Origin: Desulfuromonadales bacterium | GTDB lineage: Bacteria > Desulfobacterota > Desulfuromonadia > Desulfuromonadales > BM103 | Direction of reading: 5' to 3' | NCBI GenBank assembly: GCA_027065695.1 | Contig: JAMONP010000004.1 | Span: 1-57,607, forward strand | DNA: 57,607 bases | Shown: one piece after another, positions 10,922 to 37,446 of the stretch | How positions within the stretch are numbered: position 1 is the stretch's first letter | Layout: every line of letters begins with the position of its first letter | Translations under genes and position numbers: made by a program | The notes under the pieces: model-generated | Databases searched by the model: none | The model's input: the letters and a program-made list of their open reading frames with translations, nothing else | What the model was told of the DNA's origin: nothing

Positions 10922-10933
10922 AGAGATACCCTT

Positions 10934-11095
10934 GCAGCCTGTCGGACAATCAGGGCTGAAGTGAAAATTTGGATGTTTGAGACCAGATTTTGGCTCATTT
11001 GAGAGTAATAGCCATAGCTATTGATAGAAAAGGAGCTGAAATATGGGCCAAACAGGCGAATTTGCAGCCAGCTCATTGATTGTCCGACAGGCTGC
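10934..11095. repeat. 156-bp-type element with terminal inverted repeats, copy A
   Basis: A perfect 19-bp terminal inverted repeat, gcagcctgtcggacaatca (10934-10952) and its complement (11077-11095), bounds a non-coding core. The reverse complement of this copy aligns along its full 156-bp core (10937-11092) with the element at 44969-45124. No reading frame inside is convincing, so it looks like a MITE-type non-autonomous element. It lies between the divergent exported-protein and lipoprotein genes. Confidence 0.85.
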
Positions 11096-11275
11096 TTGGG
11101 AACGACAATATTCCATGCACCCGAATAGTAGCCTCTTCGCGTATAACCGGTCAACAACTCTGCCGGACCACATGATTAAATCAGCAAAGAGATTAAACAC
11201 ACAGACTGGATTCAGGTATAATGCAAAAACTTTATCAGGAGCCTGTCAGACAAGCCATCAAAGGAAGAACGTCCA

Positions 11276-12040
11276 ATGCGCTCACTATTATTTGCAATAC
11301 TTTGCCTCACGCTGTTTCTTGCCACAGGTTGTCAGGAGGAGCCTCATCAAGCCGTCAAAAGCCCTCCACAGTCTACATTGGATGTCAAGAGTAGCACTAA
11401 AGATCAGAAAACAACCACAGAGGAGAAGCCAGCTCAGCAAGAGCCCTCAGGGCAACAAGGGCAACCAGAACAGAAACCACCCGAACCACCTGTCTTTGAA
11501 AACTTCCAGGATGTTCCGCAGCTCTCACTCTTCCCCCGCGCTGGCGACTTTCGCCCTGCGAAAGATAGCGATCGCCTGCCCTACTGGAAAACCTTTATCG
11601 AGCATCTGGTTAAAGTCACCGGGGTTGCCGAGGAAAAGACGACCGGCAGTCGTGCCTGGGTGTTCCGCAGCATCAAATCAATCGACTCCCTGGCCTACTT
11701 CTCACCACTTGGCGTTGAGCCACAGACCACATATCAAGTTTCTTTCCAGCTTACAGCAGAACTCCCGGAAGGCGCGTCGGCCGGTATCGGCATCCTGGAA
11801 TTCAACAAATTTCTCTGGATCCCCGGACAGTACACCGAGGAGACCTTTAAACAATACTTTAGCGGCTCTCATGAAGGCAAACGCCTGACCGGCACAAGCA
11901 AAGGAGAACATACCTTTACCTTCACCACCGGTCCCGAAACGCGCATGATTCACGTGGTCCTCTTTCGTGAGGGAACACATGATCGCAACCGTGTAATGTT
12001 TGATGATATCAGGATCGAAAAGATGAAGGATGAAGGGTAG
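11276..12040 (+). CDS. Lipoprotein with C-terminal beta-sandwich domain, unknown function
   Basis: 254 residues. The signal sequence ends in a lipobox (LATGC, Cys19). A linker rich in Gln, Pro, Lys and Glu follows (about residues 20-75). The C-terminal ~175 residues look like a galactose-binding/carbohydrate-binding-module-type jelly roll, with the characteristic final strand RVMFDDIRIEKM. A spacer plus sandwich suggests display on the membrane with a binding role; the ligand is unknown. It converges on the peptide gene and shares a bidirectional terminator with it. Confidence 0.65.
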   Translation: MRSLLFAILCLTLFLATGCQEEPHQAVKSPPQSTLDVKSSTKDQKTTTEEKPAQQEPSGQQGQPEQKPPEPPVFENFQDVPQLSLFPRAGDFRPAKDSDRLPYWKTFIEHLVKVTGVAEEKTTGSRAWVFRSIKSIDSLAYFSPLGVEPQTTYQVSFQLTAELPEGASAGIGILEFNKFLWIPGQYTEETFKQYFSGSHEGKRLTGTSKGEHTFTFTTGPETRMIHVVLFREGTHDRNRVMFDDIRIEKMKDEG

Positions 12041-12042
12041 AA

Positions 12043-12075
12043 AACAAAAGAGCCAGCTTTCGCCAGCTCTTTTGT
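12043..12075. terminator. Bidirectional terminator
   Basis: aacaaaagagc and gctcttttgtt form a symmetric stem with A/T tracts on both sides. It serves the plus-strand lipoprotein gene (stop 12040) and the minus-strand peptide gene (stop 12082). Confidence 0.85.
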
Positions 12076-12081
12076 TCTACT

Positions 12082-12138
12082 TTAGCAGGGATGTACGTTA
12101 CTGCTCCCTACAACTCTTGGCTTTTGATACTTCTTCAT
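12082..12138 (-). CDS. 18-residue peptide MKKYQKPRVVGSSNVHPC (copy 1)
   Basis: An 18-codon gene, far below usual annotation limits, with a perfect GGAGG six bases before ATG and a terminator starting a few bases after its TAA. A near-identical peptide is encoded at 23424-23480. The two differ at 10 of 18 codons, but eight of those changes are silent, which is strong evidence that the peptide itself is under selection. Y4-x-x-P7-x-V9 resembles the YxxPxL leader motif bound by PqqD-like RRE domains of RiPP systems, and the conserved end GSSNVHPC could be a modified core. It lies 85 bp downstream of the secreted FG-GAP gene. No modifying enzyme is in the window. Confidence 0.75.
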   Translation of the reverse strand: MKKYQKPRVVGSSNVHPC

Positions 12139-12223
12139 AACAACCTCCTCTGTTTTGGGACTGTCCATTTGCGAACTCGCCCCGTCTTGCGGTTTATGTT
12201 GACGATTCCAGCAGCCTGTTATC

Positions 12224-14027: not shown

Positions 14028-15428
14028 ATGCTAAACACTGGATACATGCCAAACGCTGGATATGAACTCATCCATCACGGCGCACGTCACAGCGTGACCG
14101 GTTCATGCCATGAACTTCGTCTACCAGCAGGCAGCGGCCTGCTGGTTGATTGTGGAATATTTCAGGGAGAAGAGGACGGCACGCCACTGGAAATCGATTT
14201 TGCTGTTGACCACCTGTGTGGCCTGGTTCTCACCCATATCCACATCGATCACGTCGGCCGCCTCCCCTATCTGCTGGCTGCCGGTTTCAAAGGTCCAATC
14301 TTTTGCAGCCAGGCCTCGGCCCTGCTCCTGCCTACGGTCCTGGAAGATGCGCTAAAGATCAGCTTTACTCGTGATCGACAGCAGATCGCACACTTCCTCA
14401 AAATCGTTGCCGGGCAACTTTTTCCACTCCCTTACGGGAAAATGCAGCGCGTTGAGGCAAACAACGGTGACTATCTGCAGATCCGCCTACAGCCAGCCGG
14501 GCATATCCTCGGCTCCGCCTACCTTGAGTGTCACTTCAAAGATAATACCGGCAAACCACAACAAGCTCTTTTCTCCGGCGACCTTGGCGCACCCTACACG
14601 CCACTGTTGCCTGCTCCCAAGCCACCATATGGCGCCGACCTGGTGGTACTGGAAAGCACTTACGGCGACCGTCTGCATGAAGGGCGCAAACAACGGCAAG
14701 AAAAATTGCAACAGGTCATAAAACTGGCACTCCAGGATCGTGGAGTCATCCTTATACCAGCCTTCAGCATCGGCCGCACCCAGGAGCTACTCTACGAAAT
14801 TGAGGAACTGATTCACCGTAACCAGCGTCGCTTTGCCGCCTGCAACCTACCATGGGAGGAATTGGAAATCATCCTCGACTCACCGCTCGCCAGCCGCTTC
14901 ACCAAGCTCTATCGAGAGTTGCAACCTTTCTGGGACGCCGAAGCACACGTCAAACTCAAAAGTGGGCGTAAGCCTCTAGCTTTTGAACAGTTGACAACCA
15001 TCGACAACCATCGGGACCATCTGCACACAGTCGACTACCTGAAACGTAAAGCCCGGCCCTGCATCGTTATAGCCGCATCAGGAATGTGCAGCGGCGGACG
15101 TATTGTCAATTACCTGAAAGCGATGATCAATGATCCACGCACCGACATCCTCTTCAGCGGCTACCAGGCCGTCGGCACACCGGGACGCGCCATCCAGAGA
15201 TACGGCCAGCAAGGCGGCTACGTCGTCCTCGACAGCAAACGCTACGACATCCGCGCCCGCATCCACACTATCTCCGGTTATTCTGCCCATGCCGACCAGA
15301 AAAACCTGGTCAATTTTATCAAACGTATGCGTAAACGCCCCAAACATGTCCGCCTGGTCCATGGCGAACCTGAGGCGCAACAGGTGTTGCGTCAAAAGCT
15401 GGAACAACTCGGTATCATCGTCGATTAA
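14028..15428 (+). CDS. Beta-CASP metallo-beta-lactamase-fold hydrolase (putative ribonuclease)
   Basis: 466 residues. The catalytic metal motif is H70-x-H72-x-D74-H75 (THIHIDHVGRLPYL). It is followed by PAGHILGSAYLE (motif 3), SGDLG (motif 4), the beta-CASP insertion with LESTYGDRLH and IPAFSIGRTQELLYEIE, IAASGMCSGGRI, and SGYSAHAD near the C-terminus. This is the RNA-specificity group of zinc nucleases (CPSF/YsrA-like), so an endo- or exoribonuclease role is likely. A strong GGAGG-rich site precedes the ATG. A degenerate tandem copy lies downstream. Confidence 0.88.
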   Translation: MLNTGYMPNAGYELIHHGARHSVTGSCHELRLPAGSGLLVDCGIFQGEEDGTPLEIDFAVDHLCGLVLTHIHIDHVGRLPYLLAAGFKGPIFCSQASALLLPTVLEDALKISFTRDRQQIAHFLKIVAGQLFPLPYGKMQRVEANNGDYLQIRLQPAGHILGSAYLECHFKDNTGKPQQALFSGDLGAPYTPLLPAPKPPYGADLVVLESTYGDRLHEGRKQRQEKLQQVIKLALQDRGVILIPAFSIGRTQELLYEIEELIHRNQRRFAACNLPWEELEIILDSPLASRFTKLYRELQPFWDAEAHVKLKSGRKPLAFEQLTTIDNHRDHLHTVDYLKRKARPCIVIAASGMCSGGRIVNYLKAMINDPRTDILFSGYQAVGTPGRAIQRYGQQGGYVVLDSKRYDIRARIHTISGYSAHADQKNLVNFIKRMRKRPKHVRLVHGEPEAQQVLRQKLEQLGIIVD

Positions 15429-15858: not shown

Positions 15859-15876
15859 TGCCAGCGTCCCGTCGGA
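15859..15876. repeat. 18-bp direct repeat at the duplication junction (second copy; first at 15446-15463)
   Basis: tgccagcgtcccgtcgga occurs 18 bp after the stop of the intact beta-CASP gene. It occurs again abutting the first base of homology of the truncated copy at 15877, which marks the rearrangement breakpoint. Confidence 0.85.
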
Positions 15877-22413: not shown

Positions 22414-23244
22414 TTATTTTGGTGGAATTTCTGCCGGAACTTCGTTTGCATCAAGGATGAGACGAAAACCAATATAATTATTGGTTGTTTGCGGCGGAAA
22501 AAAGTCACGACTGAAAGCTCTTGAGTCTTTCATACGCTCTATCCAGGAACCGCCACGGACAACTTTATTGCTTGGTTTTGCTGTAGATGCTGGGGAGCCA
22601 TCCTTCGGTGTCGCAGTGTAATCCTTCTGGTAATCATCCACGACCCATTCGCTGACATTACCGACGGTGTCGTACAGCTTCCATGAGTTTGGCGAAAACT
22701 TACCGACGGGCATGGTTCCCTTAATGCGCTCTTTGCCGCAATTTCTACAATTGGCAGCCTCTTCTGGGAGGGTGTCACCAGTCCAGAATTTTGTTGTTGT
22801 ACTGGCACGTGCGAAGTACTCCCACTCAGCTTCCGTTGGCAACCTGAACTTCAGACCAGCTTGGCTGCTGAGCCAGTCAGCGTAAGCAGTGGCATCGTGC
22901 CAAGAAACATTGATGACGGGCCGTGTGGCGCGTCCCCAACCTTCGTCTGCAGGCAGTTCACATTGAGGAACCGCATTGCAGTACTGATCATATTGGGCAA
23001 AGGTCACCTCGTACATACCGACAAACAGGTCATCTACTGTGACGCTATGAATCGGCTGTTCATCAGGCAACACAGTGGATCCCATCTGAAAGCTGCCGCC
23101 CTTGATCTTGACGAATTGCATGTTGACCACATCAACAGTGTAATCTGCTTTGGCTGGCGGTTGCAGGACAGCACAACTTGTCATAACAAATAATGTGACA
23201 ACCAGAAGCAGGCCTCTGCAAAAATACTGTTTTGAATACAACAT
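22414..23244 (-). CDS. FGE-sulfatase (SUMF1-like) domain lipoprotein
   Basis: 276 residues from the ATG at 23244 (AGGA ahead). A lipobox (FVMTSC) ends the signal sequence. The rest is a formylglycine-generating-enzyme-type fold: MQFVKIKGGSFQMGST at the start, YEVTFAQYDQYC, RPVINVSWHDATAYADWLS, FRLPTEAEWEYFARA, LYDTVGNVSEWVVDDY, KVVRGGSW and YIGFRLI. The redox-active Cys pair of true FGE is not obvious near the C-terminus, so it is more likely a non-catalytic or ligand-binding relative displayed on the envelope. It lies beyond the terminator that follows the second peptide gene, so it is probably transcribed separately. Confidence 0.85.
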   Translation of the reverse strand: MLYSKQYFCRGLLLVVTLFVMTSCAVLQPPAKADYTVDVVNMQFVKIKGGSFQMGSTVLPDEQPIHSVTVDDLFVGMYEVTFAQYDQYCNAVPQCELPADEGWGRATRPVINVSWHDATAYADWLSSQAGLKFRLPTEAEWEYFARASTTTKFWTGDTLPEEAANCRNCGKERIKGTMPVGKFSPNSWKLYDTVGNVSEWVVDDYQKDYTATPKDGSPASTAKPSNKVVRGGSWIERMKDSRAFSRDFFPPQTTNNYIGFRLILDANEVPAEIPPK

Positions 23245-23365
23245 AGAAAATATTCCTTTCTGCCTTTGCACCATCGTTTATAGCATTCACAGCATAACAA
23301 AGACTTCCAATTTAACGAACCCTCCTTCTCTTGTCATCAATTGTATCAAATCTCGCATAAAAGAA

Positions 23366-23393
23366 TATAAAAAGGGCCGGATTGCTCCGGCCC
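23366..23393 (-). terminator. Rho-independent terminator after peptide copy 2
   Basis: On the minus strand GGGCCGGA-GCAA-TCCGGCCC is followed by TTTTTATA, about 30 bp after the peptide stop. Confidence 0.92.
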
Positions 23394-23423: not shown

Positions 23424-23480
23424 TCAGCAGGGGTGAACGTTGCTGCTGCCGACTACTTTTGGTTTTACGTACTTCTTCAT
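23424..23480 (-). CDS. 18-residue peptide MKKYVKPKVVGSSNVHPC (copy 2)
   Basis: An 18-codon gene with GGAG seven bases before the ATG, 59 bp after the stop of the 2205-residue cytochrome and followed by a strong terminator. It therefore looks like the last gene of that transcription unit. It differs from copy 1 only at residues 5 (Val for Gln) and 8 (Lys for Arg), while eight other codons differ silently. There is no signal peptide. The single Cys is the last residue. Basic N-terminus, YxKPxVV motif and Gly-Ser-Ser hinge resemble a minimal RiPP precursor. The link to the cytochrome may be functional or only transcriptional. Confidence 0.75.
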   Translation of the reverse strand: MKKYVKPKVVGSSNVHPC

Positions 23481-23539: not shown

Positions 23540-26500
23540 TTACCAAGGGGTAACCTTGTTCCAGCCTGGGCCGAAAACGGTACCGGAACCGGTTGCGCCT
23601 GTTGCCTCCGCCGGGCCGCGACGGTGACAGTTCTGCGCCGCGAGCCAGTTAGACAGCCGCTCGCCATCTGTAGTGCCACCAGAACCATCGACTTGGTGTA
23701 CATCCTGCCAGGTATTGTGGTTGTTGTCGAGGCAGTTGGTAATCATCAGTTTAGGCAGACGCGACGCATGCGGGTTATGGCACTTGCCGCAGTTGAAGGT
23801 ATGGTACTGCGATTGGGTGGTATTTTCGTCAACTGTCAGTGTAGAGGTTCCAGCGGCGACCTGAGCCGTGCTGCCACCGGCACTGACCCCCCACTCAAAT
23901 GCCTCAAAGGCATAGGGACGATAAGCTGGGTTAGTGTTTGGAGTATAGTTGTAACCGACAGAACCACGATAACTGAAACCACGATTGGTTTCCTGCGCCA
24001 ACCCCATGGAAACATCATTACCGTTTGTCCCGCCGGTATTAGTTGTTGGTGTTGCGTTACCACCCCGCAGAGTATTGCGGAAAATATTTGCGGCCGCCGA
24101 CCCGGTACCGCCAATAACCGCATTACTATGACCATTGGTACCGACCCAGAGACCTTCACTACCGGCATTACCTTCACCGGCGGCAACATCCATATTATCA
24201 ACAATATCGGCATCAGTTGTGAAGCCCTGACTGTGGCATAGTTTGCACAAACCCGCAGTAGTCGCCAGGGTCTCACCGTTGTTCGGGTTGCCGCTGTTCT
24301 GATCGATCCAGTAGCCGCCGACACCGCCATTGTTGGTAGAACTGGCGCTACCACGCGGTACCAGACCATAGGTACCGCTACCGCCATTCTGACTTTCGGT
24401 CCAGCCACCATCATGTGCTGTTTGCGGCGCCCCATCCTCATTATAGGGGTTGCCTTTCCAGGTGCCACGCAGATAAGGCTGACCGGAGACCGCATCGCCA
24501 CTGGTCAGGTTACGGTCGTGAACGTCATGACAGTAGGAACAGCGGATATCTCCAACAGCATCCTGCGCTTCTGTCATGCCGCCAACAGAGTACGCAGTAC
24601 CACTGACCACCGAAGTACCTGCAAGATTCGCTGAGTGAGTCGATTTAATGACACCGTTCTTGTAGCTGAAGTCGGTTTGATTGGCGCTTGACCAGGTCGC
24701 AGTGGTCCAATTAGAGGCACTCAAACTACCGTAATCATAGCCCAGGCCACCGGTATTGGCGTTGTTATTCACGCCCCACTCCGAAACCGGCGTACCTTGG
24801 GCATCATGACAAGACCAGCAAGTCTCAGCCTCAGTGGCATTGGTTATCGTCTTAATGGTCTTGAGCAGATGAATACCACCGGAATTATAGTCGATACCGA
24901 CCGTAAGATTATTGGGAATCAGTATCGTTGTTGCAGTGGTCCCCTGCGGATGACCAGACTCGTGACAATGCTCACAGTTGACGCCGGTGATGCCGCGACT
25001 ATCGGTCACATGGCCAGGATCGACGCCGCCGAAACCATGGCAATCATTACAATTAAATGTATTGGCTGGATTCCATGTGGTATTGCCGTGACAACTGTTG
25101 GCATCAAGGCTGCCACAACTGCCACCCGGAGCAACGTTGACCCCGGTGTCTGTCCAGGTCGCACCCAGACCGGCAGCAGCATCAAAGTTGACTTCAACCG
25201 TACCATTGGCATGATTAGCCGTACCGGTACCGGCACCGCTGTGACAAAGGTTGCAGTAGCTGTTTGGCGTGGTATTAGAGAAACTGACATTCAAGTGTTT
25301 CTGATGTTTACCAACCTCGTAGGAGCCACTCAGCCCGGCAAGATCGACCGGCGGTGCACCATCGCGATTATCACCAAAGGTGCCGGAGGTACCGTGGCAG
25401 TCACCACAAGCAACGGTACCAGTCGCACCCCAGGTCGGGGTGCCAGCACCGTGGCAGGAGACAGTAGAACAAGAACCGTAACCGTTGCCAGCAGGATTGG
25501 GACTCTGGCTGTAGCTGCCACCGATGGCAGCGGCAAAAGTTACATCAATATTTTCATTGGCATGGTTGATGGTTTCATCGCCAGCACCGTTATGACAGGT
25601 TGTGCAGCCATAGGCGTTATGTGTGACATGACTGCCGGTGGTCGGACGACCAGTAACGGCCGCACCATGACAATCGCCGCAGGCGACCGCACCACCCCAG
25701 GTGGGGGCCGCGAAGGTTGGCGACACAACAGTACCACCATTATTCTGTACATCACTGTGACAGTAGACATTAACACAACTGTCATAAGTGGTTGGCGCCG
25801 GGCCAGCGCTGCCGCTTGCGGCACCGGCATAGGTCGGAGTACTGCCGCTCAAAACGGTGACATCCCAGGCCACCAGGCCGTCCATATGGGTATCACCCAA
25901 GACCGGCACGCTACCGTGACAATTATCACAGGTCAGGTTGAGTTGGTAAGTAGCACCTGTCAGGTTACCAGCATGGCGACCATGGCTGCCAAGAGCGCCG
26001 GTCTGCATCTGCGTGGCGGTACCTTTATGGCAATCGCCACAGGCGATGGTAGCGGCATCATTCCAGACAGCAGTGGTAGTCGTGCCACCGATCGTATTAC
26101 CGTGGCAGTAGATGGCACAGGTCAGTGCGTCACCAGTGGTAACAGATGTCCCTGTACCAGCGTCAGCGTTATAACCGCCACCACCGGCGCGGCCATCATA
26201 GGTACCACCGTTGTTACCCGGGGTGACAATACCGATATTGATATTGCCAGCTTTTGGCATCTCACCAGAACCTTCCCAACCGGTGTGACAGGTGTTACAG
26301 CCATAAGCCTTATCAATAGCGTGTAGCTGGTGCTTACCTGCCGTTGCAGAACCGGTCCCGACCGAGTTATCCAGACCATCGGGTCCGCCGAGGGTATTGA
26401 CAACAGGCGGATTACCATGACACGCGTTGCAAGAAGCACGGAAGCCCATCTTGTGCTCATGACATTTAATGCAATCAGCATCAATATAGTGGCTCTGGTT

Positions 26501-29500
26501 TCCAGCGCTGGCACCGCTCATGTCGTAGCCGTGAAAACGCACACCAGAAGTCGGTGTAGAAACATTCGGGTCGGTGGCACTGTAAGTATGACAAGTTTCG
26601 CAGATTTTGTTTGAGGTTGCATGAGCACCATTTGTGTCACCGAGATCAGAACTGCCGTCCACTGCAGAAGTGTATGTAATATTAGTTACAGCACTACCAG
26701 GAATGCCTGCCAGAGGCACCTGGGTAATGATACGTTTGATATTACCGGTGTTCTTCTCGTGGCAGGTAGAACAGAGGATTGGACCGTACTGGGTAGAACT
26801 ATTGGTCCCCCAACCACCGGTATAGCGACGGTCTTCGTTCCAACTTCCACCAGCTGTGGTACATGCTGTGGAAGTGGTAATTGTTGTGCCATCGCCAGCC
26901 AGTACGCTACAAGCGAAGCGCAGGGAGTTGTGTAGCAGATCGTTATCGGCCCAGGCAACCAGTTGCACCTGAAGAACCTGTGGATCGGCGTTGCCATTGT
27001 GATCTATACCTGTGTCGATATAGCGTACGTTGATATCAACAAGAGCCCCAGAGGTCAGACCGCTTAAGGCAAAGGTCTTCGGGCTGGTGTTGTCAACATC
27101 AATTTCTGGAGTCGACCAAGCGTTAAAACCGCCTGCATTCTGTTGATACTGGTATTGGAAGGTTGCATTCGCATCTTTATCACCCTCATAAGGCATGGTG
27201 ATCGTGATGCCAGTGAGTCCTTGCTGAGTGGCTGAGGCAGGGAGGACGACCAGATTGGTGGTGCGGGTATCATAATTAACCGTGATATTTGTCGCCGTGA
27301 CTGCCGTACCACAAGTACCATCAACTGCCCGGCCCATAATTGTCGCTGTTCCTTGAGCCTGGGCACCTGGATCAAAAGAAGTTCCACTTGCATTCCATAT
27401 GGTACCACCGTCAGAAGACCACTCAGCCGAACCAACCTGAACGGTAGGAGTATCCTCGTTGATCGTAATGACTGAGGTACCGCCAACCGAGCTGATGGCC
27501 GAAGGGGTTGCAGTAATTGAAATCTGCGCGGTGGGCGTACACGCATCAGTGGTTGCGTTGGCAATAGCACCAGCAGACTGGTTCCCCAGCGTATCGGTCG
27601 CACAGACGCGATAATACCATGTAGCATTGGGGCTCAAACCAGTATGTGTGTAGCTGAGCACGGTACCGGAATAAATGCTGAGGGCAGCATTATTGCAATC
27701 TGCAACCACACTGGTATCAGCGTGCAGGTCGTAGGAAGCAGCGCTGCTGGTGGCATCCGTAGCGGCCGTCCAGCTCAAGGCGATCTGAGCCGAGCCACCC
27801 GTTGCTGTCAGAGTGCCATCGACCGGCGGGGTGCTATCCACTGTTACGCTTAACGGCGTGCCATAGACAGCGGACACATTACCAGCAGCATCTCTGGCCC
27901 AGGGGTAAAGAGTTTTAGCTCCGTCGGAGGCCACAGTGTAGCTGGTGACACTTACTGCCCATGCAGCATCGCCAGCCCCTGGCTGCGCGTTACTCTCAGT
28001 GATCATGTAGTGCGTCACCGCGACATTGTCTGTAGCAGTAATACTGAGTCCGGAGATAGTCAGATTGGTGCTGGTGGCCGGGCCGGTAAATGCTGTTACT
28101 ACCGGGGCCGCCATGGTGCTGAGATTAACTGTCGCACTATCTGTCAGTGTGCTGCAGTCACCTGTGCCCTGAGCATAGAAAGTCACAGATGCCGTACTAT
28201 CCTGCGGTGGCACATAGGTCCATGGTGAAGTCTGCGTTGGCGGAGTGGTATCACTAACCAGCATGCTGGTTGCATTGCTACCTGCTGTCACCTGAATCGT
28301 TGTACTTCCAGTGATTGGGTTCGCGATGGTATCGAGGGCTAGAGTTTTGGTTTCGGTGCAAGCATTCCAGGTGAACGTCTGTGAAACAGGTGTGGAAATA
28401 ATTGGGGTTCCACAATCGGGATCAGTGCCACGGGAATACAGGACATAATTACCATTGTTGTAATCACCACATAGCGAACCACCAGCTGTCGTTGTAGGAA
28501 TTGCAGCGGTACCAGTCCAGTTAGTACAGGTAATTTCACTGGTGACAGGAGCGGTTAGTCCAGAACCGTGCAGATTCAATGTCGCACCCCAATTGGTTCC
28601 AGTGTAGGGTGTACCGGTCGTATCTCCAGTAGCATAACGCATGGCATCTCCACTGGTAATCTGTGCTACGGCGTTGTTAGCACCAGTGAATACACCTAAA
28701 AACTCACCAGCAACTATTGGCAGATTAAGTCCGGTAAACTGATGCGCCCCGACAGTATTAGTAGCAACAGTTACAACAACAGAATTTTGCGGTGTCACTG
28801 TAGTGCCGTCCCAAGTTGCAGTAAAAAATTTAAGCGTAGATCCTTGAACCGCTGCCGTCAAATAAACGTCAATCGTATCGATTGTACCACTTCCGGTTGC
28901 AGCAAAAGTGACATCTATATCTGTTTCATTCGTATATACCGTACCTCCAGTCCCAGGTTGGAAAACTGGCCCAACTGAAATAGGTGTACCCGGAGTAGTC
29001 TGTTGCTGAGTAACTTGGTATTGCAACGACAGGTTGGCCGCAGGGTCACCGGTAGTAGTGATTAAAAGGCTGGCATCATAACCGTCGCCAAAGGCCGTTT
29101 GGCCTGTAGGAATTGTAATGGTTGAAGGATCAGGATCAACACATAGAGTATCATAGGTAGTATTAACCGGGGTCGGATCTGTAATCGTACCGCAGAAGCC
29201 AGTCGCCTGAGTTTCGATAGCAACTGTGCCACTATTGTTAACATGTGGCGTATAAGTCGCACCACTGGCCTGCCAGCCACTGAAAGCACCGCCATCAGTG
29301 CTCCAGCGAACTTGTGGAGCACTACCACCCGTACCGCCGAGGGTGGCGGTGATAGCGGTCGCTGCGGTGATGACGCCGGGGTCTACTGCTGCAACGGTTG
29401 CAGTTTCAGTACAAGCCACAGTTTCATCAACCGTAAAATAGGCTGTTGTTTGATTACCAGCATCAGGCCATTCATTTAGACCATTAGTATCCCATGTAGT

Positions 29501-30157
29501 GGCACCAGCAGTTGCATTGGCAACAATGACAATTCCCCATTTGTTACCTGCTGAAATAGTCCCGGTAAGCCCAGAAAAATCTATATAATCAACATCGCCA
29601 CCTGTCAAGGTAGCAATTATTGTACTGCTCAAAACGCCAATCTGCGTGCCGGTGCTACTATATTCACGAAGCTCGGCAGTAACATCAAGTCCACCGGTGG
29701 TATTGCGATCTTTCATAGTTAACAAGTTACCAGTCGCCTGACTAGTAACAGTTGTATTCGAAGCCACAGTGTTCGGACTAAGGAATACCAGCATATCTAT
29801 CGGCCCACCACTGATAGCGATTCTAGCATCCTGAGGATTAGTACAATTGGCAGGTGTCGTAACGGTAAGATCTACAACCGTTCCAGCAGCGGTTATTTGT
29901 CCGCCGTCACAAGGAACACTGTTTACATCAACATAATAGGTAGTAAGCGCCGCCTCAGCACTCCCCACAAACCCAGCCGCCCCAAACACCATCGCCATCA
30001 AAGCCACAACCGCAAACCGCGCCACACGCCAGCTACCACACGCTTCCCCACGCCGACAAGCCGGACCACCTGCATCCGTTCGACAAGTGCCACTTAATCT
30101 CATCATTCTCGTCATCTTCTCAACTCCTGTCAGCATGTGCGCACTCCACTTTTTCAT
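23540..30157 (-). CDS. Giant exported multiheme cytochrome with N-terminal Ig/FN3-like half
   Basis: 2205 residues. A hydrophobic signal sequence is preceded by a long basic N-region. The true start may be Met15 or Met18 rather than 30157, since GGAG precedes Met15 by eight bases. Residues ~70-1120 are Thr/Ser/Asn-rich Ig/FN3-like repeats (for example DSTPPVDGTLTATGGSAQIALSW... and YYRVCATDTLGNQSAG). From about residue 1128 to 2150 I count 17 CXXCH, two CX4CH, one CX3CH (CAIYCH) and one CX7CH (CGSLDANSCH), many in the GSu CxxxxCH...CxxCH pattern. Likely extracellular or outer-surface electron transfer with an adhesin-like stalk. Heme attachment at the long-spaced motifs is unproven. Confidence 0.9.
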   Translation of the reverse strand: MKKWSAHMLTGVEKMTRMMRLSGTCRTDAGGPACRRGEACGSWRVARFAVVALMAMVFGAAGFVGSAEAALTTYYVDVNSVPCDGGQITAAGTVVDLTVTTPANCTNPQDARIAISGGPIDMLVFLSPNTVASNTTVTSQATGNLLTMKDRNTTGGLDVTAELREYSSTGTQIGVLSSTIIATLTGGDVDYIDFSGLTGTISAGNKWGIVIVANATAGATTWDTNGLNEWPDAGNQTTAYFTVDETVACTETATVAAVDPGVITAATAITATLGGTGGSAPQVRWSTDGGAFSGWQASGATYTPHVNNSGTVAIETQATGFCGTITDPTPVNTTYDTLCVDPDPSTITIPTGQTAFGDGYDASLLITTTGDPAANLSLQYQVTQQQTTPGTPISVGPVFQPGTGGTVYTNETDIDVTFAATGSGTIDTIDVYLTAAVQGSTLKFFTATWDGTTVTPQNSVVVTVATNTVGAHQFTGLNLPIVAGEFLGVFTGANNAVAQITSGDAMRYATGDTTGTPYTGTNWGATLNLHGSGLTAPVTSEITCTNWTGTAAIPTTTAGGSLCGDYNNGNYVLYSRGTDPDCGTPIISTPVSQTFTWNACTETKTLALDTIANPITGSTTIQVTAGSNATSMLVSDTTPPTQTSPWTYVPPQDSTASVTFYAQGTGDCSTLTDSATVNLSTMAAPVVTAFTGPATSTNLTISGLSITATDNVAVTHYMITESNAQPGAGDAAWAVSVTSYTVASDGAKTLYPWARDAAGNVSAVYGTPLSVTVDSTPPVDGTLTATGGSAQIALSWTAATDATSSAASYDLHADTSVVADCNNAALSIYSGTVLSYTHTGLSPNATWYYRVCATDTLGNQSAGAIANATTDACTPTAQISITATPSAISSVGGTSVITINEDTPTVQVGSAEWSSDGGTIWNASGTSFDPGAQAQGTATIMGRAVDGTCGTAVTATNITVNYDTRTTNLVVLPASATQQGLTGITITMPYEGDKDANATFQYQYQQNAGGFNAWSTPEIDVDNTSPKTFALSGLTSGALVDINVRYIDTGIDHNGNADPQVLQVQLVAWADNDLLHNSLRFACSVLAGDGTTITTSTACTTAGGSWNEDRRYTGGWGTNSSTQYGPILCSTCHEKNTGNIKRIITQVPLAGIPGSAVTNITYTSAVDGSSDLGDTNGAHATSNKICETCHTYSATDPNVSTPTSGVRFHGYDMSGASAGNQSHYIDADCIKCHEHKMGFRASCNACHGNPPVVNTLGGPDGLDNSVGTGSATAGKHQLHAIDKAYGCNTCHTGWEGSGEMPKAGNINIGIVTPGNNGGTYDGRAGGGGYNADAGTGTSVTTGDALTCAIYCHGNTIGGTTTTAVWNDAATIACGDCHKGTATQMQTGALGSHGRHAGNLTGATYQLNLTCDNCHGSVPVLGDTHMDGLVAWDVTVLSGSTPTYAGAASGSAGPAPTTYDSCVNVYCHSDVQNNGGTVVSPTFAAPTWGGAVACGDCHGAAVTGRPTTGSHVTHNAYGCTTCHNGAGDETINHANENIDVTFAAAIGGSYSQSPNPAGNGYGSCSTVSCHGAGTPTWGATGTVACGDCHGTSGTFGDNRDGAPPVDLAGLSGSYEVGKHQKHLNVSFSNTTPNSYCNLCHSGAGTGTANHANGTVEVNFDAAAGLGATWTDTGVNVAPGGSCGSLDANSCHGNTTWNPANTFNCNDCHGFGGVDPGHVTDSRGITGVNCEHCHESGHPQGTTATTILIPNNLTVGIDYNSGGIHLLKTIKTITNATEAETCWSCHDAQGTPVSEWGVNNNANTGGLGYDYGSLSASNWTTATWSSANQTDFSYKNGVIKSTHSANLAGTSVVSGTAYSVGGMTEAQDAVGDIRCSYCHDVHDRNLTSGDAVSGQPYLRGTWKGNPYNEDGAPQTAHDGGWTESQNGGSGTYGLVPRGSASSTNNGGVGGYWIDQNSGNPNNGETLATTAGLCKLCHSQGFTTDADIVDNMDVAAGEGNAGSEGLWVGTNGHSNAVIGGTGSAAANIFRNTLRGGNATPTTNTGGTNGNDVSMGLAQETNRGFSYRGSVGYNYTPNTNPAYRPYAFEAFEWGVSAGGSTAQVAAGTSTLTVDENTTQSQYHTFNCGKCHNPHASRLPKLMITNCLDNNHNTWQDVHQVDGSGGTTDGERLSNWLAAQNCHRRGPAEATGATGSGTVFGPGWNKVTPW

Positions 30158-30492: not shown

Positions 30493-33400
30493 TTACTTCG
30501 GCAGACTGGTGTGGCAAGCCATACAATCATTAGTCGGTGCCGCCCAGGTTGCATCATTATTGTTGTGACAAGCAACAGTGGAACAGGTTGCTGTACCGCT
30601 CGTATAAGTAGGTGTTGCAAATGCGGCCTTGGGTTGATCGTAATCAGTCGCACCCTTATAACCGGTGATGCGGTTCCAGATGGCGGACAGAATGCTGATT
30701 CCATCATCGGCATCACTCAAGTTATCACGCAGCTGAGCCTTGGATTTATAGAGACTCAGATCAGCGAAGGTAACATCCTTGGCACCGTTGAGGTGAACCG
30801 TGCTGCTCACCTGGATACTGGCTAGTTCATCGCCAATCAGTGCATTGCCAGTCCTGCTGTTATGACAAGTAACACAAGTGCTATTGGCCGAGTTGGCGCT
30901 GTTAGTCACCGTGCCGTTATGACAGGTGAAGCAGTTGATTGTGGTGGAGACGTCAGTGTCACCATGAGCCGCGCCGCTACCGACCGTACCAGACGCTGTC
31001 AAGAGACCCGGAGTTGCCGGATCGTAGAGTTCGGCATAGTGAATACCGACTTCGTGGACACCGTGAGCAGCGGTGGTCGGGCTGTTGCCATGGCAGTCGG
31101 CACAAGTCAGATTCTCAGCTATACCACCCCAGGTGGGAGGCGTTGCATCGTAAGTACCGTTACCATCAGAGTGACAGTAGACTGCTGAGCACTGGCCAGT
31201 GACCTGGCTGTAACTTTCACCGGTATTCCCACGCTTGGCATTCGGTGTCGGAATAAGCTGAGTCGCTGAATTCGGATCAAGCTGCATATCAACAACTCCA
31301 CTCAAGTGGAAAGTAGCCTGATCATCGGAATGGCACTGGCCACAACCGGCAACCAGACGACCAGTTGCATCATAAGTAACGTCGAACCAGCCTTTAGCTG
31401 GATCACCGTAATCGCCAGTGGTCAAGCTCTTGCCGGCGATGAAAGCATAGACATCGGTATGATCAGCGTGATCCGGATGGTTGAGATTCGGGTCCTTGTA
31501 TTTACCAGCACCGTGACAATCGATACAGGCATCACCACCATCAACCTGGACGATACGGTCGATATGCTTGGTGACATCAACGAAACCGTTGTTAGTTGCA
31601 TTGACATGGAAGTGACAGCTGTCACAGCTGGTACTGGTAGGATGCTGAGCACCAGACCCAATATCACCTACTGGCGGGAAGCCGTGGCAGTAGTCACAGG
31701 TTCCGTTAGAGAGATTACTTCCCCAAGTCGGGTTCACTGCCACATTGTAGAGACCAGCGGTCTGGTCAATAGTCGAGAATTTCAAGCTGTCACCATGGCA
31801 GTAGGTTGTGGCGCATGAACCATAAGCCGTGCCCTTGGCCTTACCTGTGAGGTAACTACCACCAAAGTCACCGGTAGCAGAGTTATAGACATTGACCCAA
31901 GTGTCCAGATGCTCGATCGGTGCCGTGGTGTCTTTAACGGCGCTATCGTGACAGTTACCACAACTGATAGCGGTATTGTTAATAGCTGAACCAAGGTGAT
32001 TATTGTGACTACCACTGACCATGTTAGAGAGATGACAAGAAGCACAACCACCTGTGGTACCCCACTGTGGAGTCACGGCCAGGGTTCCAGTGCCATCATC
32101 ATGACAACTAGCTGTGCTACAGGTGCCATAACCATTACCAGGTACACCACCGAGGGTGTAAGTGTTGGCAACATCAATCAATTTATTTACATGGTTGCTG
32201 CTGTTATAGGCCGAGGCATCGTTAAGCGCACCGGTGTGGCAATCAGCACAACCATTGACACCGGAAGTGCCAAGGTGAGCAGCATGACTTCCGGATGTAA
32301 GCCCGGTGGCTTCGGTAACCTTGTGACAGGTACCACAGGCAGCGCTGGCCGGAATAGCCCAGGTCACCGTATTGTAAGTCGGCGTAGCTGAGTTACCATT
32401 GCTGGTAGACTGACCTGTAGAGTGACAGTAAACCGCGTCACAGCTACCGGCATAGGCACTGTTACCACCGTCGAGAGAACCAAGGATCGCCACATTGAGC
32501 AGGGTATTGACGTGTACGGACTTGTTGCTGATCGCCCGGTCGGTAGCATCCACGGTGGCGTTGTGACATGACTGACAGGCTTTGCTGGCACCGTTGTTGG
32601 CGTTGTTAATGTGTTTGGTGTGAGCCCCGCTGACCATGGCGCTGCCAGAGGCGACATTGTTGTTATGACAACCGGTACAAGTAGCAGCCAGGCTGGACGT
32701 CCACTGTGGCGCGGTTGTGTTCGGTGCACCTTTAGCAGCAGTACCGTCGTTGTGACAGTCGTTAGTGCCACAAGTACCGTCGGTAAAGGCGAAACCACGA
32801 TCAGGCGAAGCCGCTGCCGCCGTTACGTTAGCGCTGTAGCTGCCGGAACCGGCCAGGTTGACTTCAGCCGCTTGAACGGTACTTACTGCACCACCGGCAT
32901 GAGTGGTTGCATTATGACAGTTACCGCACTGGAAGATGTATCTACCAGCTGTACTGTTGTTGTTGGCATTAATCGCCGTAGCCACCGTTGCACTGTTGTA
33001 ATGTACACCATGGCTGTTAGCCAGGGCGCTGCTGGCGCTATGGCATGAGTCGCAATTGAGAGCCGGACCACCCCATTGCGGTGTGCCACTGCCATGACAA
33101 TATGTTGTAGAGCAGGTATCGGTAGCACCATCGAAGCTGCCGGTCTGCTTGAAAACAACATCGATAGCACCATCTACATGCAGAGCAGGTGTAAGGCCGT
33201 CAATACTGGTTCCGGTCTTACTGGTATCGGCATGACACTCTTCGCAACTGATCAAACTGGTTTCAACGTGCTCTACGTGAGTATTGGCACTGGTCGCAGC
33301 GGCACCGTTGCTGGCATAAACCGGGTGGCTCTTGCTGGTATTGTCACCATGACAGTTGAAGCAATCGAGGGTATCTGTAGCAAAGTTGGGATTGTACTGC

Positions 33401-36400
33401 ACCAGGTCGGCACCGAAGTTACCATTGCTGTGACAGACGTTGGTCGCACAACTGGTGACATCGACACCACCATTCACATGCAGGGTGTAATCAGCAATTG
33501 TAGTGTTATCAGAGACCGTAGTGGTATGACAATCGACACAGCCAAGAGTCTTGCCGATAGTCGTGCCGGCTGAAGCAGTCACAGTGTGCTCTTCGTGAGC
33601 ACCGGAGAGGTTAGTTGCTGCGGTTGCACCTTCGTGACAGCTGACACAATCGTTGATAGTGGTGCCCCATGTCGGGGTACTGTCTACACGTCCACCACCG
33701 GTCTGACCGTTACTGTGACAGTAGACAGTGCTACAGTTACTGTAGGCATCACCCGGTACGGGCGTACCATTATAGTTACCGCCCCAAGAACCGTTGATGC
33801 TGACATCAACGGCAAAGTCGGCATGTTTAGCGGTGCCGGTGCCTGCACCCTGATGACACTGAGTACAACCGATAGCATACTTGCTGGCAGATACGTGATC
33901 GGAGTGAGAGCCAGAGGTTTGTTCCGTGACGCCGCCAGCAGGACCGGCATTGTGACAATCGCCGCAGTTGACTGCACCACCCCAGTTGGGGGTCGCAAAG
34001 GTAACCCCATTGTAGCCACTTGGTGGTGATGCCTGGACATCAGAGTGACAATAGATGTTGTCGCAATTGCCGTAGGGCAGAGAACCAACATCTGCCTTGA
34101 CACGGGTTCCGGCGTTACTGCCGCGATAGGTTGAAGATGTAGTCAGTTGAGCTTTGCTTGCATCAAGGTGCCAGTTAAGAGACTGATTAACGTGCAGTGA
34201 TTTATCAGCAATGCCACCTGTAGAGTTGACGGCTGTGGCACCGTGACAGACGTCACAATTGATACCGATATTTTTCACATGAACATCGTGAGCACCGCCA
34301 TCCATGGCAACTGAATTGTCTGCATCATGGCAACTGCCGCAAGCACCACTGGCGGCACTGCCCCAGGTTGGGCTTGCCGCATTACCGTTGCCACCAAAGT
34401 TACCGTGACAATAGAGGCTGGCGCAAGTGGCGTCTGAGTAGTAGAAACCATTATCGGCAGTTTCACCGCTGCCAGACGTGTAAGTAGCGCTGGTATCAGC
34501 AACTGTACCGTCAAAATTAACTTCTGCAGTCAGTCTTGGCACAGTGCTCCTAACCCATCCACCTGCATGAGTGATACCAACAGTACCATTAGTGGAATGA
34601 CAGACACCGCACTGGATAATGTAGTTACCTGTCGTTGAACTATTGGTCTCATTCGCGTAATCACCAACCGCAACCGCATTATAGTGGGCAGGATGGCTCT
34701 GGGCTAAAGTGTTGTTAGCTGCATGACAGCTGCCACAGGCGACGGTGCCGCCCCATTGCGGGGTGCCAGCGCCATGACATACGGTCGCCGAACAGGTTGT
34801 ACCATCCCAGGAGTTAATTTTTGAGCTACTTACATCAATCTTCTGGTCAACATGTGTACCGCCCAAAACGACCGAAGTGCTATCCAGGGTGGTCGTCACG
34901 TGGCAATCCTGGCAAGGTATATTGCTCGACCCAACATGTTTGTTGTGAGAGTTGGCATCTGTCGAACCAGCACCACCATCCGCATAGGCAGGATAGGCCT
35001 TGTTGGTCGCATCATCACCATGACACTTATCGCAGGCATTGAAGGTTCCTGGCGTGCTATCTGCGAGCGTCCAGGCCGGGGTGTTGTTCTTCGGGTTGGC
35101 TGTTGCCACATGATCAGTGACACTGCCCAGATTACCATCACTATGGCAGAGGCTGGTCGAGCAGTCTTGAGCAGGATCGATCGTCACCGGCATTGCCACA
35201 TCAACCTGACCGTTCACATGGAAGGCAACAGCAGCAATCGTGGTGTTGTTACCGGCGTTCATCGTGTCGTCGTGACAGACTGCGCAATCGAGGTTGCGGC
35301 CTACGTTCGAGGTTGAACCATTGACATGAGCGGCATGAGCGGCAGTCTGGTTGGTCCCCGCCGTTATGTTATGACAAGAGTTACAGGTCAGTGGACCACT
35401 GCTGGTCCAGGTGATGGACTTATAGACACGGTCGCCAGGGACGGCATCCTGGCCGGTGCTGTGGCAGTAAACCGCCGAACAGGTCACATTGCCAGGGCCG
35501 CCCCAAGGGTTGGCACCGTGAGCAACGTTGGCACCACCAGCTTTGAGTGGACTGGTCTCGTCAAAGACAACGTCGATAAGCTGGTTCATATGTTTGACGT
35601 TGATGGCACCGGTCTGCAGGGCAGTACTGCCGCTCGCAGTATCAACATGACAAATATTACAGGAGAAACCTTGCCCAAGGTGAGCCTGGTGAGTCACTGA
35701 GTTATTGCTGCTGGTCATAGTGGCAGAATCGTTGCCATGACAGGAGCTACACTCATTGGATTGGCCGACAATAGTATCCTTGGTAGCGTTCCAGCCTGGC
35801 GTAGTGAAGTTAAAGGTTCGTGTACCAGCACCATCGTTGACCCCACCGTTACTGTGGCAATATACGTTGTTACAATTGGCTGCAGCGTCATTGTAAACTG
35901 GGTTAGCTGCACCTGAAGCCACCGACTTGCTATCATAGGTGTAGCCAGCCTCAAGTACGTCACGGAAAGAGGTATTATCCTTATTGTGCGTTCCTGCAAA
36001 GTCAGTAATATGCGTATTGTGGCAAACCTGACAGGAAAAACCGTAGCGCGACGTGGTTCCGGCATGGCTTACATGTGGAGTTGTAGTCTCATCTTTGAAA
36101 TGGCCAGAATCGTTGAGATAGTCATATTGCACAGCTGAGTTACTACCGTTCGGTGCCCAGGCATAACCATTAAGCACATAGCCCGCGGCAGCAACATTAC
36201 CAGGGGCATTAAACTGCGGCGGCGAACCGTGACAACCATCGCAGCCGACCGGCTTGGAGAAGGCGCCTTCAGCGTGGCTTCGGTGACAAGTCGAACAGTT
36301 TTCACCTTGGGTATGTACCCGAGTCGCATTAAATGGCGGATCAGCCATATCACCATGACAGCTTTCACAAAAGCCGTCGACGACACCTACCTGTGTACCA

Positions 36401-37446
36401 CCCCAGAGATCTTCACGCTTCGCAGTGCCACCAAATTCTGTGGGCAGCTCTGTGTAGTTCTCATTCAGCATAAAGTATGAAGGGTTGTTATTGTTATAGT
36501 TATGTCCACCATGACAGCCCATGCAGCCCATGTCGACAGTTGCAGAACCGTGCATGGAGGTAACAGGGTCCGAATTGTGACAGGTGGTACAGAAAGTCGT
36601 CGCTTTGGCCGGGTCGTTGACAAACTGGGGACCATCACCGCGCAGCATCAGACCATCACCATTGGTTGCGGCTCCAGGGCCATCAGCTGTAGAGCTATTC
36701 GAATCAGTGAAGTGCAGATTATGGCAGGAGAGGCAACTGACATTACCATTAACTAATTGGATACCATTGGCATAGGAGTCAGGAGCTGTGGCCGAATCGT
36801 CTGTGACCAATTTATAGTCTGCACTGTTGTTGCTCTGAAAAGTTGCGTAATCGGTCACCAACGGATGGCTGAGCAAACCATGGTTCGCTGGCACGGAATC
36901 ACCAAAAGTCTTATGGCAGGCCAGACACATCTCGTCGGGCGTCATCGGCGTGACACGGTCCGCCTTGGTTTGCATCAACGTCGGGTTGGTCGCGTATTCA
37001 CCGTGTGGATTATGACAACGCGAGCAAGCCACCTTGCCGGTCGTGGTTCCATAGCGACTATAGAAGCTGGGGTGTAAAGTCCGGTTCGGCTCAGCTGCGC
37101 CAGCCGCAGGGTTGGTCGAGGTCGCGGCCCAGTTGTGCGAGGTCTCTGCTCCAGGAGCAAGATTATTGCCGTACTGATTACTGGCATCGCCGGTGACAAA
37201 GCCTATGCTGGGAATCGCTGTGGGCGTTCCTTGTGGAGCACCAGGGTTCAGTGCGATTGGCACCGGACTCTGGTTATGGCATTGAGTACAAACATTATCA
37301 TTGCCCAGGGTATTGGCCGATGTCCCTGTAAGGTGGCATTCCTTACAATCGAAGAAATGCACTCCGGGTCCGGCACCTATGGCGAGGTGCGGGAGGACCA
37401 ACAGCAGTGCCAGACTTAGAAGGACGAGTGAACCTTTAGATCTCAT
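30493..37446 (-). CDS. Giant multiheme c-type cytochrome, 58 heme motifs counted
   Basis: 2317 residues with a signal peptide (LPHLAIGA, cleavage near residue 25). By hand I count 58 heme-binding motifs: 43 CXXCH and 15 CX4CH. The first 11 are CXXCH. Motifs 12-50 form 13 successive triads of CX4CH, CXXCH, CXXCH at ~120-160-residue period; the last eight are less regular. Interheme segments repeat themes such as TPxWGG and GxHxxHV, where the His residues are likely axial ligands. This is the Geobacter-type CxxxxCH...CxxCH repeat family (TIGR01904-like) at extreme length, expected to be secreted and to act as a long electron conduit. AGGAG precedes the ATG. It is the third gene of the 41230-30493 unit. 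Confidence 0.93.
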   Translation of the reverse strand: MRSKGSLVLLSLALLLVLPHLAIGAGPGVHFFDCKECHLTGTSANTLGNDNVCTQCHNQSPVPIALNPGAPQGTPTAIPSIGFVTGDASNQYGNNLAPGAETSHNWAATSTNPAAGAAEPNRTLHPSFYSRYGTTTGKVACSRCHNPHGEYATNPTLMQTKADRVTPMTPDEMCLACHKTFGDSVPANHGLLSHPLVTDYATFQSNNSADYKLVTDDSATAPDSYANGIQLVNGNVSCLSCHNLHFTDSNSSTADGPGAATNGDGLMLRGDGPQFVNDPAKATTFCTTCHNSDPVTSMHGSATVDMGCMGCHGGHNYNNNNPSYFMLNENYTELPTEFGGTAKREDLWGGTQVGVVDGFCESCHGDMADPPFNATRVHTQGENCSTCHRSHAEGAFSKPVGCDGCHGSPPQFNAPGNVAAAGYVLNGYAWAPNGSNSAVQYDYLNDSGHFKDETTTPHVSHAGTTSRYGFSCQVCHNTHITDFAGTHNKDNTSFRDVLEAGYTYDSKSVASGAANPVYNDAAANCNNVYCHSNGGVNDGAGTRTFNFTTPGWNATKDTIVGQSNECSSCHGNDSATMTSSNNSVTHQAHLGQGFSCNICHVDTASGSTALQTGAINVKHMNQLIDVVFDETSPLKAGGANVAHGANPWGGPGNVTCSAVYCHSTGQDAVPGDRVYKSITWTSSGPLTCNSCHNITAGTNQTAAHAAHVNGSTSNVGRNLDCAVCHDDTMNAGNNTTIAAVAFHVNGQVDVAMPVTIDPAQDCSTSLCHSDGNLGSVTDHVATANPKNNTPAWTLADSTPGTFNACDKCHGDDATNKAYPAYADGGAGSTDANSHNKHVGSSNIPCQDCHVTTTLDSTSVVLGGTHVDQKIDVSSSKINSWDGTTCSATVCHGAGTPQWGGTVACGSCHAANNTLAQSHPAHYNAVAVGDYANETNSSTTGNYIIQCGVCHSTNGTVGITHAGGWVRSTVPRLTAEVNFDGTVADTSATYTSGSGETADNGFYYSDATCASLYCHGNFGGNGNAASPTWGSAASGACGSCHDADNSVAMDGGAHDVHVKNIGINCDVCHGATAVNSTGGIADKSLHVNQSLNWHLDASKAQLTTSSTYRGSNAGTRVKADVGSLPYGNCDNIYCHSDVQASPPSGYNGVTFATPNWGGAVNCGDCHNAGPAGGVTEQTSGSHSDHVSASKYAIGCTQCHQGAGTGTAKHADFAVDVSINGSWGGNYNGTPVPGDAYSNCSTVYCHSNGQTGGGRVDSTPTWGTTINDCVSCHEGATAATNLSGAHEEHTVTASAGTTIGKTLGCVDCHTTTVSDNTTIADYTLHVNGGVDVTSCATNVCHSNGNFGADLVQYNPNFATDTLDCFNCHGDNTSKSHPVYASNGAAATSANTHVEHVETSLISCEECHADTSKTGTSIDGLTPALHVDGAIDVVFKQTGSFDGATDTCSTTYCHGSGTPQWGGPALNCDSCHSASSALANSHGVHYNSATVATAINANNNSTAGRYIFQCGNCHNATTHAGGAVSTVQAAEVNLAGSGSYSANVTAAAASPDRGFAFTDGTCGTNDCHNDGTAAKGAPNTTAPQWTSSLAATCTGCHNNNVASGSAMVSGAHTKHINNANNGASKACQSCHNATVDATDRAISNKSVHVNTLLNVAILGSLDGGNSAYAGSCDAVYCHSTGQSTSNGNSATPTYNTVTWAIPASAACGTCHKVTEATGLTSGSHAAHLGTSGVNGCADCHTGALNDASAYNSSNHVNKLIDVANTYTLGGVPGNGYGTCSTASCHDDGTGTLAVTPQWGTTGGCASCHLSNMVSGSHNNHLGSAINNTAISCGNCHDSAVKDTTAPIEHLDTWVNVYNSATGDFGGSYLTGKAKGTAYGSCATTYCHGDSLKFSTIDQTAGLYNVAVNPTWGSNLSNGTCDYCHGFPPVGDIGSGAQHPTSTSCDSCHFHVNATNNGFVDVTKHIDRIVQVDGGDACIDCHGAGKYKDPNLNHPDHADHTDVYAFIAGKSLTTGDYGDPAKGWFDVTYDATGRLVAGCGQCHSDDQATFHLSGVVDMQLDPNSATQLIPTPNAKRGNTGESYSQVTGQCSAVYCHSDGNGTYDATPPTWGGIAENLTCADCHGNSPTTAAHGVHEVGIHYAELYDPATPGLLTASGTVGSGAAHGDTDVSTTINCFTCHNGTVTNSANSANSTCVTCHNSRTGNALIGDELASIQVSSTVHLNGAKDVTFADLSLYKSKAQLRDNLSDADDGISILSAIWNRITGYKGATDYDQPKAAFATPTYTSGTATCSTVACHNNNDATWAAPTNDCMACHTSLPK

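Follow-up and report, generated by a model that had tools for sequence, protein, structure and literature searches.

The window, i.e., the entire stretch of 57,607 nucleotides analyzed here (contig JAMONP010000004.1 of a Desulfuromonadales bacterium), carries two short peptide genes on its minus strand, each located directly behind the gene of a much larger protein. The relevant features are as follows (both hairpins were read from the sequence).

12082..12138, minus strand: peptide gene 1 (MKKYQKPRVVGSSNVHPC followed by a stop codon), identified by ORF reading, five copies in the genome, and coding selection
12144..12148, minus strand: ribosome-binding site GGAGG of peptide gene 1, ending 5 nt before the ATG
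about 12045..12072, minus strand: intrinsic terminator hairpin of peptide gene 1, directly 3' of the stop codon
12224..13690, minus strand: secreted-type FG-GAP/UnbV protein of 488 aa (PF13517, 216 bits; PF01839; PF07593)
22414..23274: SUMF1/FGE-sulfatase-domain protein (domain match), directly downstream of peptide gene 2
23369..23393, minus strand: terminator-like hairpin GGGCCGGAGCAATCCGGCCC with a T-run, 3' of peptide gene 2
23424..23480, minus strand: peptide gene 2 (MKKYVKPKVVGSSNVHPC followed by a stop codon), identified by ORF reading, with GGAG at a similar spot
23540..30157, minus strand: giant CxxxxCH/CxxCH multihaem cytochrome of 2205 aa with 17 CxxCH (TIGR01904, PF14522/PF09698)
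30493..37446, minus strand: second giant multihaem cytochrome of 2317 aa with 43 CxxCH (TIGR01904, 338 bits)

Re-reading of the minus strand confirmed the 18-residue peptide gene proposed in the earlier note and its paralogue. The GGAGG, which the note had placed six bases before the ATG, is present at a spacing of 5 nt, and peptide gene 1 is the sole case with GGAGG in the tested interval among 279 ATG ORFs of its length class in the window. The terminator, described as lying right after the gene, has a 12-bp stem, a GAAA loop, and a T-run, and is common to the convergent gene at 11276-12040. Also as claimed, 10/18 sense codons differ between the two peptide genes, eight of them silently; the stop codon differs as well. 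The FG-GAP/UnbV gene ends 85 nt upstream of peptide gene 1, and the gene of the 2205-aa cytochrome, whose C-terminus reads ...GWNKVTPW, ends 59 nt upstream of peptide gene 2; the 2317-aa cytochrome gene is not directly followed by a peptide gene. The SUMF1/FGE-like protein was considered as a modifier of the peptide and rejected, being present at the peptide-2 copy only, with no recurrence seen.

Elsewhere in the window, an inverted repeat (10929-10952 / 11077-11100) with 24-nt arms that are 92% complementary and 124 nt apart is accompanied by another partial copy of the repeat near 11240; the arrangement resembles a small mobile element or a REP-like sequence. Two metallo-beta-lactamase/beta-CASP nucleases are encoded at 14028-15428 and 15822-16724. 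Their best NCBIfam model is that of type VII Cas14, far below its cut-off (299 and 215 vs 800 bits), and a beta-CASP nuclease gene stands divergently beside the FG-GAP/peptide pair in several related loci.

Five copies of the peptide gene are present in the genome (3.39 Mb, 108 contigs). Two are those of the window, behind the FG-GAP gene and the giant cytochrome gene; of the other three, one follows a truncated cytochrome ORF on contig C99, one an HD-domain gene on C67, and one lies in a GeoRSP operon on C97. A search of 136 genomes of the order yielded 142 matches at E ≤ 0.05 in 57/136 genomes, four of the matches being doubtful (two in G040 with E 0.03-0.04, one in G094 with E 0.014, and one in G075 that ends with HPR, not HPC). 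Members of the family comprise 18-20 residues. Three further families of the class reach the highest scores with the GeoRSP model, for which reason we assign them to the relatives of Geobacter; their version of the peptide resembles MKKRTYIKPRVVGSANVHPC and was read in 19 of 20 stretches, the twentieth having been chosen for its operon.

The claim that selection acts on the peptide is borne out by a pN/pS of 0.20 (0.149/0.742) over 127 non-redundant copies. The information content of codon positions 1, 2, and 3 amounts to 1.58, 1.64, and 0.79 bits, compared with 0.16 bits in the upstream and 0.09 bits in the downstream flank. Since [YF].KP and [VI]HPC were prescribed by the pattern used to gather the 127 copies, these letters are in part invariant by design, and no conclusion was based on their invariance. 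With a wider pattern, 131/135 matches end exactly with HPC and 131/135 carry the motif Y..P.[VIL] (the remainder are mostly false matches); this pattern and unfiltered BLAST-type matches revealed few exceptions to the fixed letters. The gene is a predicted short ORF under coding selection, and neither absence from relatives nor frameshifting substitutions, which the earlier note had named as evidence against it, occurred. ORFs this short usually fall below the acceptance length of gene callers, which would explain why the peptide is missing from the annotation; no NCBIfam model matches it when in-frame upstream residues are added (20-residue minimum). At one cytochrome locus of G124, two tandem peptide genes (L108, 4998 and 5101) stand about 100 bp apart behind a single cytochrome gene.

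A GeoRSP-type radical SAM/SPASM plus PqqD system, which the earlier note had postulated elsewhere in the genome, is encoded on contig C97. The gene order is beta-helix protein, PhnD-like binding protein, TPR protein, YedE, PqqD, radical SAM/SPASM, peptide, SPASM protein, and cysteine-desulfurase-family protein. The radical SAM/SPASM enzyme reaches 445.8 bits with TIGR04303 (cut-off 400). PqqD, whose gene overlaps the radical SAM gene, and the SPASM protein have their best families in TIGR04302 (87.9 bits, below the cut-off of 100) and TIGR04304 (109.7 bits, below the cut-off of 300), respectively; the cut-off of TIGR04304 is reached in no genome of the order, and a separate match to it is present in 51/53 GeoRSP genomes. 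YedE (TIGR04112, 412.7 bits, cut-off 200) and the cysteine-desulfurase-family protein (TIGR01977, 462 bits, cut-off 377) score above their thresholds. The runner-up NCBIfam models of the radical SAM enzyme are all below cut-off (AhbD, 204 bits; NirJ, 186 bits; mycofactocin enzyme, 186 bits), and its closest full-length relatives in the PDB are the peptide-modifying SkfB, PqqE, and SuiB. A search of genome contigs with this one protein as query returned close relatives only; those at 78-95% identity belong to Desulfuromonadales, Desulfuromonas, or Deltaproteobacteria records.

The SPASM protein downstream of the peptide gene is predicted to adopt a radical-SAM barrel (pLDDT 83.7, pTM 0.85), with SuiB, SkfB, and PqqE as top Foldseek matches (SuiB TM 0.67 by query length). 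It has seven invariant SPASM cysteines; because the model shows a radical-SAM fold, yet no invariant cysteine precedes residue 230, N-terminal to the SPASM cysteines, this partner is predicted to be a pseudo-radical-SAM enzyme. The YedE gene precedes the radical SAM gene on the same strand at a distance of 360-947 bp in 49/53 GeoRSP genomes; it is located on another contig in G015 and G020, and none was seen in G010 and G021. A second type of YedE (about 480 bits) occurs unlinked to GeoRSP. Relatives of PhnD, TPR protein, and YedE are present near GeoRSP in three long stretches from other families of the class, and relatives of PhnD and YedE together with a beta-helix protein in a MAG labelled as Nitrospirae; a cysteine desulfurase was not found near GeoRSP in the four stretches from outside the order. 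The scan of the operon proteins revealed no precursor protease, exporter, lasso cyclase, or immunity protein. In GeoRSP operons such as that at L033 (4547-8202), YedE has a beta-helix protein of NosD type and a PhnD-like binding protein as neighbors, and ABC permease genes were not seen among the scanned proteins of operons with this set; NosD-like protein, PhnD-like protein, and YedE are possibly a periplasmic loading module.

The check proposed by the earlier note, co-occurrence of the peptide with radical SAM/SPASM and PqqD genes across related genomes, shows that peptide and GeoRSP go together. When genomes of the order were counted as GeoRSP-positive at a TIGR04303 match of at least 200 bits (including pieces at contig ends, and excluding matches of 140-166 bits in other genomes, which represent a different protein), the peptide was present in 53/53 positive genomes vs 4/83 others (Fisher's p about 2e-33, uncorrected for phylogeny). 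The four genomes with peptide but without GeoRSP (G018, G070, G081, and G128) are each 70-82% complete. In 46 of the 53 positive genomes, the radical SAM gene is followed at 30-209 bp by a copy in the same orientation, with about 0.005 expected for random positions. Among 141 genomes in the rest of the class, the peptide occurs in 33/35 GeoRSP genomes vs 5/106 others; the exceptions include G239 (97% complete), which has the peptide and no GeoRSP match, and G182 (a complete genome) and G226, which have GeoRSP and no peptide match. In three other families of the class, the peptide was found within 1.5 kb of the radical SAM gene at none of the 30 GeoRSP loci scanned, and at 8-10 kb in two. In the MAG labelled as Nitrospirae, a radical SAM protein with 56% identity is preceded by a PqqD-like frame and followed by a peptide ending with VKYVKPSVVGSSSVHPC, which is the sole copy in that genome. 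In a set of 33 loci, the radical SAM gene was read at 28 (it was lost at five by the longest-ORF rule), and the peptide was seen at 26 of these. Occurrence of the peptide, and often its gene position as well, is tightly coupled to that of a PqqD-like protein and a radical SAM/SPASM enzyme, joined at most loci by the SPASM-bearing, putative pseudo-radical-SAM partner.

The copies located away from GeoRSP show a second, different pattern. In a survey of 132 distinct copies (loci L034, L035, L038, L039, and L082-L245 plus the window), which left out most GeoRSP-adjacent loci with lower numbers, the upstream neighbor was defined as a same-strand ORF ending within 350 nt (one radical SAM gene was reassigned by hand from "other"). 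Directly upstream were 57 multihaem cytochromes (54 plus three cut fragments), 24 GeoRSP radical SAM enzymes, 18 FG-GAP proteins, six HD proteins, and 12 others; 15 copies had no such neighbor of at least 100 aa. The setting behind a secreted FG-GAP protein, from which the earlier note had started, is thus recurrent (18/132) and one of several, with multihaem cytochromes being the commonest. A multihaem cytochrome gene directly precedes 53% of the 108 copies away from the radical SAM gene, even though proteins with strong TIGR01904 domains number only four in the genome under study. The cytochrome link is visible also by genome content, because TIGR01904 cytochromes are present in 44/53 GeoRSP-positive vs 9/83 GeoRSP-negative genomes; the domain without the peptide was seen in at least seven genomes that lack GeoRSP. 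A WNxxTPW-like C-terminus is shared by 32/54 upstream cytochromes, in both groups of the class (two orders). A role confined to the cell exterior is hard to reconcile with the HD partner, a protein of cytosolic type. Terminator-like hairpins lie within 90 nt downstream of 95/106 non-GeoRSP copies (16.2 in mononucleotide shuffles) but upstream of only 7/106 (4.2 in shuffles); for copies beside the radical SAM gene, the numbers are 19/26 downstream (7.4 in shuffles) and 3 upstream (3.8 in shuffles). With such hairpins behind most copies and before few, the peptide gene is usually the last cistron.

The enzyme set is that of GeoRSP (TIGR04302, TIGR04303, and TIGR04304), with the radical SAM enzyme above cut-off and PqqD and the SPASM protein best-matched only; new relative to it are the candidate substrate and the loci where further copies stand beside partner genes. 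Among known systems, PQQ biosynthesis is similar in combining a small precursor, a PqqD-type chaperone, and a SPASM radical SAM enzyme (pqqA with pqqD/pqqE). In the core of PqqA, Glu and Tyr are cross-linked, whereas the peptide has no Glu and carries its tyrosine in the docking-like part, and the radical SAM enzyme scores 118 bits vs a PqqE cut-off of 381. The two systems also share the arrangement of one enzyme operon with several precursor copies: PMC4109929 gives 3-12 copies of pqqA for Methylophilaceae, compared with single copies of the other pqq genes. It is this resemblance, one enzyme set serving several precursor genes, from which we infer a cofactor or carrier. Mycofactocin (MftA/B/C) would be analogous as a peptide-derived redox carrier, and the MftC-type radical SAM family (TIGR03962) is among the nearer ones of the enzyme (185.8 bits, cut-off 265). 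MftA ends with Val-Tyr and is modified at its very C-terminus; by contrast, the peptide ends with Cys (HPC in 131/135), and the companion proteins differ. Its exact ending at Cys nevertheless suggests chemistry at that residue, as at the C-terminal Tyr of MftA.

Similarities to other peptide-modifying systems are more limited. Lasso peptides have cyclase and protease genes beside the precursor gene, whereas neither a cyclase nor a B2 protease was recognized among the operon proteins scanned, and the putative core of the peptide is invariant and only about eight residues long. The PqqD protein weakly matches lasso PqqD models, and PMC13381572 describes discrete lasso RREs that bind a leader motif [Y/W]xxPx[L/V/I/F/A]; the YxxPx[VIL] motif of the peptide family, with Y4-x-x-P7-x-V9 here, matches it, in agreement with the RRE-type reading of the earlier note. 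The thio(seleno)oxazole RiPPs (SbtM, TIGR04082) appear to share the Geobacter-type radical SAM chemistry and the cysteine/chalcogen theme. However, TIGR04082 is not among the best 25 families listed for the radical SAM enzyme and is matched only by the SPASM partner (25 bits, cut-off 350). Given the invariant Cys18, a thioether as in sactipeptides or ranthipeptides would be possible.

As a whole, these observations are best explained by a ribosomally made precursor of the GeoRSP system, which we consider likely. The proposal of the earlier note that the peptides are substrates of such a system is strongly supported by genomics (the operon copy and the co-occurrence in the order and in the rest of the class), and the peptide is, judging from genomic context, very probably a GeoRSP substrate. 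Residues 4-9 (YxKPxV) would dock on the PqqD-like recognition domain, and the radical SAM/SPASM enzyme, with the putative pseudo-enzyme as partner, would modify the C-terminal GSS(N)VHPC, with the invariant terminal cysteine as the most likely site or mediator of the reaction; that the chemistry is centered on Cys18 has about an even chance. Sulfur or selenium may be supplied via the neighboring YedE-type transporter and, in this order, by the cysteine-desulfurase-family protein; PMC9312934 describes YedE as a transporter with a possible relation to Se. The extra precursor genes would be the last cistrons of giant cytochrome, FG-GAP, and HD operons, expressed together with the proteins that need the cofactor or carrier, so that supply would follow demand.

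A different function for the same gene arrangement would be that of a structural or ligand microprotein, with the modified peptide being exported and becoming part of, or capping, the giant cytochromes and FG-GAP proteins. The position of 57/108 non-GeoRSP copies directly behind multihaem cytochrome genes and of 18 behind FG-GAP genes, the WNxxTPW-like C-terminus common to 32/54 such cytochromes in two orders, and the distribution of TIGR01904 (44/53 vs 9/83 genomes) are all in line with such a role. Yet the peptide has no export signal, six copies follow the cytosolic-type HD protein, the GeoRSP operon itself makes a nearly identical peptide, and the partners are too varied to suggest a specific subunit. 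Many cytochromes lack a copy, including one of the two in the window; the occurrence of cytochromes without the peptide also weakens the case for an obligate cytochrome subunit, and we regard the structural reading as unlikely. Alternatively, the peptide could act without modification, as a regulatory microprotein or a sensor of nascent chains whose gene closes long operons at their 3' end and whose link to GeoRSP is regulatory; this would agree with the last-cistron position, the terminator, the strong ribosome sites, and the hyperconservation. A free cistron behind a stop codon, however, is an odd location for a nascent-chain sensor, the YxxPxV motif of PqqD type and the strict coupling to GeoRSP would have no explanation, and in the MAG labelled as another phylum the single retained copy lies within the GeoRSP locus; we regard this reading as very improbable.

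The RRE, the radical SAM/SPASM enzyme, and the short precursor would suit a conventional RiPP antibiotic or lasso-like bacteriocin, but the cores of antibiotics diversify, whereas this one is nearly invariant over many genera, with multiple copies beside respiratory genes; together with the lack of a recognizable lasso cyclase, protease, exporter, or immunity gene among the scanned operon proteins, this leaves little room for such a product. Least probable of all is that the frame arose by chance or that a conserved RNA element was mistaken for a gene, even though the frame is very short and many copies adjoin terminator hairpins. Five genome copies, the spread of the family, and coding selection rule out chance, and an RNA element is ruled out by the codon-position pattern and the absence of any Rfam family reaching its gathering score anywhere in the window; the pN/pS of 0.20, the unconserved flanks, and the conserved ribosome site point in the same direction. 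A GeoRSP precursor that is nearly frozen, is served by one operon for several precursor genes, and lacks recognizable exporter and immunity genes argues for the making of a cofactor or carrier, not an antibiotic. We rate a cofactor or electron carrier as the product slightly below an even chance, and by analogy, a peptide-derived redox factor resembling PQQ or mycofactocin would be its nature.

A literature search, conducted mostly without subscription journals, found no paper on the peptide or on GeoRSP, and neither this search nor the NCBIfam family library revealed a substrate of GeoRSP. What is new is a precursor family for a known, orphan enzyme system and its unusual multi-locus link to respiratory cytochromes. 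The peptide (MKKYMKPRVVGSSNVHPC) can be synthesized, which provides a candidate substrate of GeoRSP ready for in vitro assay. To our knowledge, PQQ and mycofactocin are the only peptide-derived cofactors of this enzyme class. The peptide may be the precursor of a small redox molecule, and a cofactor as its product would extend this list. A tentative and rather doubtful extension is that it represents a third kind of peptide-derived redox cofactor, perhaps bearing sulfur or selenium and based on the C-terminal cysteine, that is used in extracellular electron transfer and whose precursor genes tail the operons of its users (giant cytochromes and FG-GAP proteins). With its tie to giant multihaem cytochromes, the peptide family marks a point where RiPP chemistry meets extracellular electron transfer.
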